The notes beneath the pieces were generated by a model that was given only the letters and a program-made list of their open reading frames with translations, did no database searches and was not told the origin of the DNA. The position numbers were made by a program, and so were the translations under genes. This document shows positions 19,569 to 24,439 of a stretch of DNA of 24,439 nt, in pieces. Position 1 is the first letter of the stretch. Every line of letters starts with the position of its first letter. Source of the DNA: a virus; IMG/VR virus record IMGVR_UViG_3300048694_000101, positions 1 to 24,439 of that record. The stretch is one strand, 5' to 3'.

Positions 19569-22500
19569 ATGACAAATTTAGATTTGCAATATCTAGCTAA
19601 TACCGCAAATTCACCTAATAGTTCGTTGACAACTAATTTTAACGTCACACCATACTATGATGACTATTCTGCTGACACTGAATACTATAGAATCCTGTTC
19701 AAGCCAGGTTATGCGGTTCAGGCTAGAGAACTAACGCAAATCCAGAGCATGATCCAGAGCCAGATCAATCGATTTGGTAAGCATGTATTTAAAGAAGGTT
19801 CTATTGTTCTTCCTGGTTCATTCAACATCAAGGCAAATCTTCGTGATCAGAAGATGAATCCTATTGACTATGTTAAAATTCAGAACACAAATGCTCTCGG
19901 AAAAAATATTGACGTTACTTCATTCGTCGGTCAGATTGTTACAGGTGCCACCAGCAACATTTCTGCTCTAATTGTTGATACTCTCGACACAGACGGTACC
20001 GCAGCTAATACCAAAACATTCTATGTTACATATCTAAATGCATCAACTGTTGATCCTACCATCAGAGTATTCCAACCAGGTGAAACACTAAACAACGCCA
20101 ATACTGGTCCTTGTTTGGTTCTTAATTCCGATCCTGTTGCTAATACAGGATATGCTTCATGGTTCCAGATTAGTTCTGGTGTTGTCTTTGCCAAGGATCA
20201 CTTTATCTCATTCCCAACTCAATCAGTTGTAATGAGTAGATATGATGCCAACCCAACATGTAAGGTTGGTTTCTATGTTTCAGAAGATATTATCACAGCA
20301 TCACAGGATACCTCACTACTTGATCCTGCTTTAGAAGCATCAAACTATTCTGCACCAGGTGCTGATCGTCTAAAACTTACACCAGAACTATCGGTTGTTG
20401 CATATGACGATAGCCTCCACCTACCAGATTTCGTAACACTCTTTACGATCAAAGATGGTGTTGTGCAGATTACAAACGAGAATACACAGTATAATATTCT
20501 GGGTGATACACTCGCCCGCAGAACATATGACGAAACAGGTGACTATGTTATCAGAGGTCTTAACGTTCAGATTCAAGAACATCTAGACAATGGTGTTAAT
20601 AAGGGTCGATTCACTCTCGCCAATGGTGGTAATTCACAATCACTATATGTTTCTGTTGATCCTGGTCATGCTTACGTGCAGGGATATCCAGTTGATAACA
20701 ATGACAAATTCTCTATTGTTATTCCGAAGCCATTAAACTATAACAGCGTATCAACCCCACAAATCACATCAACTGGCATGGGTCAGTATGTCACTGTCAA
20801 TCAGTTTGTTGGATCATGGCAGGCCGATCAGGGATTGAGAATCAGTCTATATGATCAGCCACAGCAGAGAATTTCTAACTTCGGGTCATCAACAGGACAG
20901 AAGTGGTCAACAGGTTCACAATCTGGTAATGTTATCGGAACCGCCGCTGTAACAACTGTCGATTATGTTAGTGGTACTCCAGGATATGACGCAAAGTATA
21001 ATATTTACTTGACAGACATCACAATGTCTGGTGCTAACAGCTTCGGTAATGTCAGAAGCATTTATTACCATAATGCTGCGGTTTCTGACTCTGGTGCTGA
21101 CATTGTTGGTGCAAGCAATACATCAACTAACACATCACTACAAGGTCTCACACTAGCACCTTTGCTATACAAAGTAGGTTCAAACTTCACAAAGTCTGTT
21201 ACCGATTCTAGTGGTAATCCTGCAACAATCTATTTGTCTGAGAGAACTGCAGGAACAGGTACTACACTGTATATGTCATCTAACGGTGTGTTTAACTTTG
21301 TTCCTTCTCTAGGTACTTACGAAACTCTACCATATGGTACATCAACACTAGCACCTGCGTCGATTTCTAATGATCTAACCCTAACATTTAATGCGGCAAG
21401 CAATATTGGACCTATGTGGGGAACTACGGCAGTTGCTTCATCTGGTTCAGGAACAACACTAAACGGTTCAGGAACTAAGTTCAGCCGCTTTAATAGTGGT
21501 GATAAGATTGAAATTGGTGGTCTTGCTGCTAATACATTCTACATTGCGTCAGTTGCTAATGACACGACACTATATCTAACGACAAGTCTACCAGCAGGTA
21601 TCACGCTTGGTACCGCTGCTAATAACATCTTCAAAGCATATAAGAACGGTGACGTTATTAACCTGCTTGGTTACGGATCAAATACTGGTGTTGCCAAGGT
21701 TGTTACTGCCACACCAACGACAATGACCATCAACGTTTCAGAAACGTTTGCTACAACTGTTCCTGTTACACTTAACTATAAGGTGGCGCTATCATCAACG
21801 GCTGCTGCTAAAGCAACCAAGACACTTAACTCACATATCTTTGTTAAGATTAACTGTGCTACTGCTGGTGTCACTGGTCCATTCTGTCTAGGTTTCTCTG
21901 ACATTTATCAGATTAGAAACATCATCAAGAAAACAGGATCAGCACCAACAACACTAACTGACGGTACGAATGTCACCAAATATTTTGTGTTGAACAATGG
22001 TCAGAAAGATACTATCTACGATCTAGCATACATCACTCCTGCTAATGCTGCCGGTCTCGGTGCTACTGATTATCTTCTAATCGAACTAGATTATTTCTCA
22101 CCAACATATTCTGGTGGTTCTTACTTTACAGTAGATTCATATCCTGTAAACGATTCTGTTGTATCTGATTCATATATCAGAACAGAAAACATTCCGATTT
22201 ATATTTCACCAACGTCAAAGTTGAAATATGATCTAAGAAACCAGATTGACTTTAGACCTGTCAAGTCTATTACTGCCACAGCATCAGCAACAGCAGCCGG
22301 TGCCACTGTAAATCCATCAAACACATCTACCACATTCTATAATAGTGCTGCTATGAAGTTCCCAGTTCCTTCAGCAGAATTGATTTACTCATATCAGTAT
22401 TATCTAGGTAGACAAGATATCGTAGCCATCAACAAGAATGGTGAAATTGCCATCACCGAGGGTGTTCCTGATATCAGTCCTATTGTGCCGCAACCACTAA

Positions 22501-24439
22501 GCACACAGATGTTGATTGCTATTCTGAATATACCACCATATCCATCACTATCACCAGCATATGGTAACATTCTAGGAAGAAAAGATATCACCTGTTCTGC
22601 TAGAAAAGTAACCAATCGTGGTTATACTATGCGTGATATTGGTGTTCTTGATAACAGAATTAAGAACCTAGAATACTATACATCACTAACACTTCTTGAA
22701 AAAGATGCGCTGGCGATGAAAGTTCTGGATGCCAACGGTCTTGATCGATTCAAGAATGGTATCTTTATTGATACATTCAAAGATACATCATTGACTGCTA
22801 AGGGAATTGATCCTGATTATAGAATTGTCACCGATCCAGTCGAACTATCAATTCGCCCACTATTCTCTTCCGATTCATTCAAGTATAATTATATCGGTGG
22901 ATCAAATATTGCTATCAACAGCAACAAGGTGACCTTTGCATATATTGAAAATGTTCACTTTGCTCAGTCTAAAGTAACTGATGCCAGAAACCTTGAAAGA
23001 GGAACTTACTACTATCAAGGTAGTGTCACCATGTTCCCTTATCAAGACGTTTGGATTGATACTTCTACCGCAGAAGATGAGACAGTTACAATTGCTGCAA
23101 ATGGTGCAACTCTATCTGTTTCTGTCAGCACAACACCTGACGTTGCTGCTAAGGTTTCCAAATCATACACTAGCACTACATGGCAAGACTGGAAGACAAA
23201 GATCACCGGATATAATCTATATCGTGGTCAGGGTGCGTCAAGAGTATTGGTCGGAACATATAGTGATGAAGCAACAGCAAGAGGTGTAGCTGCTCAATGG
23301 ACAACGGCCGCCGGCGGTGGTGTTGCAACTCTAGAAACAGTATATGATAATACAAGATTGGGAATAGATTGGTTCGCCAATGAAAGTACCGATACAGCAG
23401 TAGGATCATATAAACTAGTTTCAAGTAGCATGATCCCATACATTAGACCTCAAGATATTGAAGTCCATGTAAGCGGAATGAAACCATATAGCAAACTACA
23501 TGTGTTCTTTGATGGTGTAAATGTTGATTCTTATGTATCACCTCTAACACAAACACAGTTCAACACACTTATTGGTGGTGGTGTGCTACCAATTGATGCC
23601 AACCTACCTTCAATGGGTGGGACATTGATTGTTGACACCAACGGTAATGCCTACTTCACGTTCAAGATTTCTGCCACTGGTCCTAAATTTAGAACTGGTG
23701 AAAGAAGAATGATTGTAATGGACAGTTCACAGATCAATCCACAAGATCCTGCTGTCGAACCAGATGCATCAACATATGCATCATCATACTTCTTTGCAGA
23801 TGGAACTAAACAAGTTCTACAGAGAAACGTCTATTCTACAGAAGGTTTCAGAATCACCGGTGAGAATACAAGTCAAGAATATATGTCATATGCTGACTCA
23901 GTTCTACCAAATACCTGGCGTCCACCACCACCACCTGCTTACTCATGCTTCAACCCTGAAGCCAAGGTGCTTATGGCAGACAGAACATGGAAGCCAATTG
24001 CTGAAGTTAATGTTGGTGATGAAGTTATTGGTGCCAATCTAAGCATCAACAAAGTTGTCAAAACCCTACAGACCACAGTAAATGGTCGTAAGATGATGAA
24101 GCTTAAAGATAACGTATATGCTACTGACGATCATATGTTCCTATCTGATAAGGGATGGAAAACATGGAATCCACAGCATGTTATCAGCATCGATGCCGTC
24201 AATGCGCCACTACTTGAAGGTGAAAACAGAGAGAAGTCAATCGATCCACTCGACAAGCTAAAGATTGTTGATATCGAAAACGATTCACTATCAGCAAAGT
24301 ATGTTGAAGTCGAAAATCTAGGGCATGAGATTGATGACACATTCGATCCTGAATATGTTGTATATGACCTAACACTAGATGGTGACGAAACATACATCGT
24401 TGAAGGATACGTTGTTCATAATTGCTGCTATGCCTATAC
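19569..24439 (+). CDS. Giant DUF4815-type baseplate/tail structural protein, partial, with intein
   Basis: ATG 19569, preceded by GAGG in AAGAGGAAAG, opens a frame without stop to the window edge (1623 codons so far). I read it codon by codon. The N-terminus (MTNLDLQYL, then NFNVTPYYDDYSADTEYYRILFKPGYAVQARELTQIQSM) and LLDPALEASNYSAPGADRL are hallmarks of the DUF4815 family of T4-like phages. Later landmarks are TMRDIGVLDNRIKNLEYYTSLTLLEKD, LDRFKNGIFIDTF and YIRPQDIEVHVSGMKPYSKLHVFFDG. The family occurs beside wedge genes in cyanophage-like genomes and is presumed to be an outer baseplate or fibre-connecting protein; correspondence to T4 gp10 is a guess. After a Pro-rich stretch (WRPPPPPAYS) the frame enters a mini-intein at 23946, then resumes with CCYAY. 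The C-terminal part lies outside the window. Confidence 0.88.
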   Translation, partial: MTNLDLQYLANTANSPNSSLTTNFNVTPYYDDYSADTEYYRILFKPGYAVQARELTQIQSMIQSQINRFGKHVFKEGSIVLPGSFNIKANLRDQKMNPIDYVKIQNTNALGKNIDVTSFVGQIVTGATSNISALIVDTLDTDGTAANTKTFYVTYLNASTVDPTIRVFQPGETLNNANTGPCLVLNSDPVANTGYASWFQISSGVVFAKDHFISFPTQSVVMSRYDANPTCKVGFYVSEDIITASQDTSLLDPALEASNYSAPGADRLKLTPELSVVAYDDSLHLPDFVTLFTIKDGVVQITNENTQYNILGDTLARRTYDETGDYVIRGLNVQIQEHLDNGVNKGRFTLANGGNSQSLYVSVDPGHAYVQGYPVDNNDKFSIVIPKPLNYNSVSTPQITSTGMGQYVTVNQFVGSWQADQGLRISLYDQPQQRISNFGSSTGQKWSTGSQSGNVIGTAAVTTVDYVSGTPGYDAKYNIYLTDITMSGANSFGNVRSIYYHNAAVSDSGADIVGASNTSTNTSLQGLTLAPLLYKVGSNFTKSVTDSSGNPATIYLSERTAGTGTTLYMSSNGVFNFVPSLGTYETLPYGTSTLAPASISNDLTLTFNAASNIGPMWGTTAVASSGSGTTLNGSGTKFSRFNSGDKIEIGGLAANTFYIASVANDTTLYLTTSLPAGITLGTAANNIFKAYKNGDVINLLGYGSNTGVAKVVTATPTTMTINVSETFATTVPVTLNYKVALSSTAAAKATKTLNSHIFVKINCATAGVTGPFCLGFSDIYQIRNIIKKTGSAPTTLTDGTNVTKYFVLNNGQKDTIYDLAYITPANAAGLGATDYLLIELDYFSPTYSGGSYFTVDSYPVNDSVVSDSYIRTENIPIYISPTSKLKYDLRNQIDFRPVKSITATASATAAGATVNPSNTSTTFYNSAAMKFPVPSAELIYSYQYYLGRQDIVAINKNGEIAITEGVPDISPIVPQPLSTQMLIAILNIPPYPSLSPAYGNILGRKDITCSARKVTNRGYTMRDIGVLDNRIKNLEYYTSLTLLEKDALAMKVLDANGLDRFKNGIFIDTFKDTSLTAKGIDPDYRIVTDPVELSIRPLFSSDSFKYNYIGGSNIAINSNKVTFAYIENVHFAQSKVTDARNLERGTYYYQGSVTMFPYQDVWIDTSTAEDETVTIAANGATLSVSVSTTPDVAAKVSKSYTSTTWQDWKTKITGYNLYRGQGASRVLVGTYSDEATARGVAAQWTTAAGGGVATLETVYDNTRLGIDWFANESTDTAVGSYKLVSSSMIPYIRPQDIEVHVSGMKPYSKLHVFFDGVNVDSYVSPLTQTQFNTLIGGGVLPIDANLPSMGGTLIVDTNGNAYFTFKISATGPKFRTGERRMIVMDSSQINPQDPAVEPDASTYASSYFFADGTKQVLQRNVYSTEGFRITGENTSQEYMSYADSVLPNTWRPPPPPAYSCFNPEAKVLMADRTWKPIAEVNVGDEVIGANLSINKVVKTLQTTVNGRKMMKLKDNVYATDDHMFLSDKGWKTWNPQHVISIDAVNAPLLEGENREKSIDPLDKLKIVDIENDSLSAKYVEVENLGHEIDDTFDPEYVVYDLTLDGDETYIVEGYVVHNCCYAY
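23946..24422 (+). other. Mini-intein (Hint domain) within the DUF4815 protein
   Basis: Residues 1460-1618 of the host protein (159 residues). Block A: Cys1 in CFNPEAKVLMADRTWKPI followed by VGDEVIG. Block B: YATDDHMFL with T60 and H63 of the intein (TxxH). Blocks F and G: VYDLTLDGDETYIVEGYVVHN with penultimate His158 and terminal Asn159. The +1 residue is Cys (24423-24425). All canonical splicing residues are present, so class 1 cis-splicing with thioester formation at Cys1, transfer to Cys+1 and Asn cyclisation is expected. About 60 polar, acidic residues between blocks B and F replace a homing endonuclease; no LAGLIDADG or HNH motif is seen. It could instead act as a self-cleaving Hint module, but Cys+1 and HN favour splicing. 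Confidence 0.9.

Follow-up and report, generated by a model that had tools for sequence, protein, structure and literature searches.

Phage inteins have been described mainly in enzymes, and the question raised by this locus is what an intein-like Hint domain does inside a phage baseplate protein: whether it splices the two parts of its host, only cleaves them, gates the assembly of the baseplate, or is simply carried along. The window, i.e. the whole stretch of DNA analysed here, is the complete IMG/VR record IMGVR_UViG_3300048694_000101 (24,439 bases), a fragment of a phage genome holding a T4-like structural cluster (ssDNA-binding protein, baseplate hub, tail tube, tube cap, head closure and baseplate wedge). 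A preliminary description had attributed it to a giant phage, which a 24.4-kb fragment leaves unproven; its assignment of the host to the DUF4815 structural proteins, on the other hand, was borne out. The host ORF (19569..24437, + strand, open at the contig end) matched DUF4815 (PF16075) at 4.7e-55 and phrog_358 at 4.6e-244 in profile searches and lies within the baseplate gene cluster, which makes it a member of the VrlC family. Its relatives among named phages are the VrlC proteins of Kyanoviridae and their kin, and the VrlC/DUF4815 family is homologous, in the N-part and the C-part alike, to chain 9euf of the solved phi812 baseplate; unlike the window protein, that chain and most VrlC homologues have no Hint domain. 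The N-extein (19569..23945, + strand) is 1459 residues long and ends in PPPPPAYS, with the five-proline run at 23922..23936 (+ strand), in agreement with the preliminary description. Of the C-extein the window supplies only the start, CCYAY (24423..24437, + strand), as the contig stops 15 nt past the last Hint residue; the continuation was read from orthologues, where the unseen C-part has about 570-600 residues.

The Hint domain itself (23946..24422, + strand; ORF residues 1460-1618) spans 159 residues from Cys1 to Asn159, beginning CFNPEAKV and ending YVVHN before CCYAY, all in one frame from 23946. Cys1 (23946-23948), block B with T60-D-D-H63 (24123..24134), the His158-Asn159 of block G (24417..24422) and the Cys+1 and Cys+2 (24423-24428), all on the + strand, were confirmed, in agreement with the Cys1, TxxH, His-Asn and +1 Cys of the preliminary description, and to these can be added an Asp141 at position F:4 (24366..24368, + strand), a residue that accompanies Cys+1 across the Hint family. 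The profile search of the 159 residues that had been proposed at that time gave Pfam Vint at 1.9e-6, slightly above the cut-off, and NCBIfam intein_Cterm TIGR01443 at 23.9 bits (cut-off 15.6; 3.6e-5). Given these matches, and given that the Cys1/TxxH/HN[CST] pattern, present once in the window, never arose when the codons of the ORF were shuffled 2000 times, the domain is not a product of chance. An AlphaFold2 model built with 44 sequences (pLDDT 91.9, pTM 0.87) had as its best match among solved structures the Tetrahymena BIL2 (6y75, Z 18.5), with the Ssp and Npu DnaB inteins at Z about 16 and Hedgehog (1at0) at Z 14.9. All 159 residues belong to the Hint fold, which leaves no LAGLIDADG or HNH endonuclease domain of the kind a homing intein carries, as had been suspected, and a crude pattern search limited to GIY-YIG and LAGLIDADG, with HNH outside the pattern, found no such endonuclease near the Hint.

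The class to which such a domain should be assigned is then a matter of comparison. With the class 1 mini-inteins (Ssp DnaB 1mi8, Npu DnaB 4o1r, gp41-1) it shares the Hint fold (blocks A, B, F and G included), the Cys1, TxxH, Asp F:4, HN and Cys+1 residues, and the lack of an endonuclease; it departs from them in its location, which is a variable linker within a baseplate protein instead of a conserved active site, in having Lys+1 domains among its nearest kin, and in that its splicing is a prediction. The type A BILs (Tetrahymena BIL2 6y75, C. thermocellum BIL 2lwy) resemble it in the HN end, the location in a non-conserved region and the absence of a homing endonuclease, and 6y75 is its closest fold match; they lack the +1 nucleophile, as does most of the phage Hint family, so that the Lys+1 relatives fall within the type A definition while the window and its clade, with Cys+1 and Asp F:4, fall outside it. 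Hedgehog has the fold and Cys1 in common with the window Hint, which shows no cholesterol-transfer region and instead has HN-Cys and a C-part. The PT-HINT domains of polymorphic toxins are related in sequence, and the same profile matches actinobacterial genomes, but most of those matches have no HN at the profile end and the host of the window Hint is a virion protein. Its sole matches in named phages were terminase inteins (for example Caulobacter phage CcrRogue TerL, 33% identity over 59%); these interrupt packaging or replication enzymes, which the window Hint does not.

Single-sequence scans found no close relatives of either the window Hint or the N-part; alignment queries did. Using the window's own Hint clade as query, we identified eight VrlC orthologues with a Hint at the same place (L249, L250, L251, L256, L257, L258, L260 and L262), and Cys1, HN, Cys+1 and Cys+2 (HN|CC-x-AY) were present in 9/9 genes, window included. 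Compared with the window, these are 51-61% identical in the N-part and 49-66% in the Hint, and their C-parts have 572-596 residues in the complete ORFs (L251 and L257 are cut short by the contig end). The N-part tree united the window and seven of the eight in one clade (100/100), the Hint-free L009 falling just outside; the ranking of orthologues by identity differed between N-part and Hint, the Hint tree in that comparison being without resolution. The residue at -1 is Cys in several orthologues, giving junctions of the form GHC^C...HN|CC, and Ser in the window.

A comparison with intein-free DUF4815 homologues, also foreseen in the preliminary description, showed the same chain with the Hint missing (L009, L011, L013 and L043), and the orthologues showed the extein continuing behind the domain, as expected of an in-frame insert. 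In the Hint-free proteins the N-part passes into a variable linker and then into a conserved C-terminal domain starting DPLAQSF or CSAYSF. A structure model of L009, from an analysis confined to contig loci, has this linker, equivalent to the one with the five prolines in the window, disordered at pLDDT 38-48, and the Cys of CSAYSF (residue 193 of the modelled segment, by hand count) opens the first strand of the C-terminal domain; together these place the Hint at the very end of the interdomain linker, with the C-terminal beta domain following at once. The site is thus variable and disordered and not a conserved functional one; insertion at a conserved functional site is usual for inteins, not strictly defining. 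The Cys+2 of the window clade corresponds to the Cys of the host motif, and since the +1 position is occupied by H in L009, S in L011 and A in L013, all Hint-free, the Cys+1 arrives with the Hint.

The wider family, assembled by scans with Hint alignments, comprises 117 distinct phage Hints, whose hosts include VrlC, a gpI-like tail assembly protein (phrog_32), a phrog_2048 tail protein and a Phage-tail_3 protein. No report of a Hint domain in phage tail or baseplate proteins was found in the open literature (subscription journals lay outside the coverage), and the family, a large one, is apparently undescribed. The residue at +1 is Lys in 86 and Cys in 18, with one each of R, G, T and F, and nine have no HN; four Lys+1 homologues had suggested that the window held the sole Cys+1 copy, an impression overturned by the wider scans. 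In the Hint tree the window lies within a 100/100 clade of Cys+1 sequences. Read row by row, position F:4 is Asp in 17/18 Cys+1 Hints; an automatic tally gave 13, as its pattern hit too early in some of the sequences. Of the Lys+1 Hints with either D or N at F:4, 80/81 have Asn. Shared ancestry makes these counts non-independent, but the pairing of Asp F:4 with Cys+1 recurs in a separate branch (L159/L166). Inteins mostly have Asp at F:4, where it assists Cys1, Cys+1 and Asn (PMC4031507). Judged by these residues, the family is of two kinds, a BIL type A-like majority with Lys+1 and Asn F:4 and an intein-like minority with Cys+1 and Asp F:4. Among cellular relatives the +1 residues are scattered and not chiefly Lys; one protein from a Thermoplasmata archaeon MAG (L177:1-6753) has nine tandem Hint domains, with HN followed mostly by Thr.

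The composition of the family is what gives weight to the alternative that the window Hint is a BIL-type autoprocessing domain that mainly cleaves, with splicing a minor outcome, so that the N-part and the C-terminal beta domain would still assemble, but as separate chains. Most of its relatives have no nucleophile at +1, type A BILs ending in HN without one mostly cleave (PMC4031507), and BILs are located in variable regions (PMC5874633); the window Hint, too, sits at a disordered interdomain linker. The state of the host genes bears on this directly. Among non-redundant VrlC loci, the gene is broken into two ORFs at the boundary in 8/26 with a Hint and in 7/67 without; since the break also occurs in Hint-free loci, two VrlC chains can be viable, and cleavage alone might be as well. 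The gene is unbroken in 10/10 loci with a single Cys+1 Hint and split at the Hint boundary in 7/15 with Lys+1 Hints, an association (p 0.02, or p 0.08 with the triple-Hint L090 counted as a Cys+1 split) drawn from loci that are not phylogenetically independent. L090-L093 represent a Cys+1 lineage in which the Hints are in triple tandem and the gene is split. In the two-ORF cases broken at or near the Hint (L090:9561-12152, L096:8550-10253, L053:12022-14433), the second ORF opens immediately ahead of the conserved C-terminal block, except in L053, where it opens ahead of the block preceding that one. Native chemical ligation to the separate C-part ORFs was considered and, in its simple form, rejected because their N-termini have no Cys after Met. 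Unbroken genes with single Cys+1 Hints and frequently split genes with Lys+1 Hints make splicing likely in the window; the pattern favours splicing for the window clade and cleavage for many Lys+1 members, and most of the family, being Lys+1, probably cleaves rather than splices. As the window clade retains Cys+1 and Asp F:4, and its single Hints lie in unbroken genes, predominant cleavage is unlikely there, and the Hint that only cleaves, raised as an alternative in the preliminary description, fits the Lys+1 relatives better than the Cys+1 copy for which it was proposed.

The Lys+1 members have peculiarities of their own. Many terminate exactly in HN-Lys-stop at the extreme C-terminus of siphophage-type tail proteins (L116:8001-8435, L117:5020-5454, L128:2587-3000, L122:8001-8414, L139:4745-5164), the Lys being kept across diverged sequences and encoded by both AAA and AAG. 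A programmed frameshift or readthrough past this end was rejected, because the next genes start normally or in an ATGA overlap and both Lys codons are used. Other Lys+1 Hints are in tandem, often with 1-2 residues between copies. In L141:4260-5200, L125, L131, L160, L162 and L148, tandem Hints are joined by linkers of a few residues at most (K, KG, KE, R, KSSS). One contig, IMGVR_UViG_3300025598_000027 (L092, L253), has a VrlC with triple tandem Hints and a second Hint-bearing gene elsewhere. It could be imagined that the tail-tip Hints form a dedicated maturation system, in which Cys+1 members would splice baseplate chains, and the strongly conserved Lys+1 members, which in gpI-, gpJ- and phrog_2048-type tail proteins often end in HN-Lys-stop, would turn the protein upstream of them into an active thioester for its ligation or cross-linking to a second tail protein; we consider such a system quite improbable.

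Whether the phage needs the domain can be judged from close relatives with and without it. L089, which has the Hint, and L043, which does not, share 93.8-94.7% of their DNA sequence on either side of the site; at the site itself, 513 bases (L089:7958-8472) stand against 48 (L043:7051-7100). The two flanking parts are under purifying selection, with dN/dS of 0.11 and 0.09, the latter for the C-part. Among L256, L258 and L262, the synonymous divergence is 0.12-0.35 in the Hint and 0.66-1.25 in the flanks. Their DNA is mostly 60-85% identical outside the Hint and >90% identical along most of it, and the switch falls near the Hint borders; the best explanation is that phages have recently exchanged this segment horizontally. 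Within the Hint, dN/dS is about 0.04-0.07 in these closest pairs, with a family median of 0.16. Constrained by selection and yet present or absent in close phages, the Hint is, on such sequence comparisons, functional as a domain, though the phage lineage as a whole can do without it. That it has become an inactive relic, or that it stays in the virion as an ordinary folded domain, is extremely improbable: its long persistence in a structural protein would fit, but the catalytic residues are all conserved in the orthologues and in much of the family, and its presence is polymorphic. The idea that splicing is conditional and times or gates baseplate assembly, for instance as a redox switch through Cys1, Cys+1, Cys+2 and the Cys-1 of several orthologues, draws on these cysteine-rich junctions and on the retention of the Hint, under purifying selection, in orthologues about 50% diverged. 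With Ser at -1 in the window, a Hint-free sister phage 94% identical and a recent exchange with sharp borders that suits a mobile element, the timing or gating role previously suggested goes unsupported and is very improbable. The accompanying view that the element is not self-mobile holds insofar as the endonuclease is absent, but the segment has recently moved between phages.

The interpretation we prefer, with a probability of roughly three in four, is that the window Hint is a natural class 1 type mini-intein in a T4-like phage baseplate protein, predicted by comparison with its relatives and by its modelled fold to be competent for splicing. Cys1, with T60, H63 and Asp141, would make a thioester at Ser-1, Cys+1 would take over the N-part, and Asn159, with H158, would cyclise, so that the N-part and C-part would be joined as ...PPPPPAYS-CCYAY.... 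The mature baseplate protein would then be the chain of the Hint-free relatives with an altered linker, for which reason the Hint may best be seen as a tolerated self-excising element that spreads between phages by DNA exchange, and not as a needed assembly switch.

The locus thus provides a phage baseplate protein with an intein-like Hint, one of a family of tail-protein Hints for which no description turned up in the open literature. It also shows that an intein-like element can keep moving between phages without an endonuclease, and the family to which it belongs, toggling between Cys+1 with Asp F:4 and Lys+1 with Asn F:4, may offer a natural series for the interconversion of splicing and cleavage.
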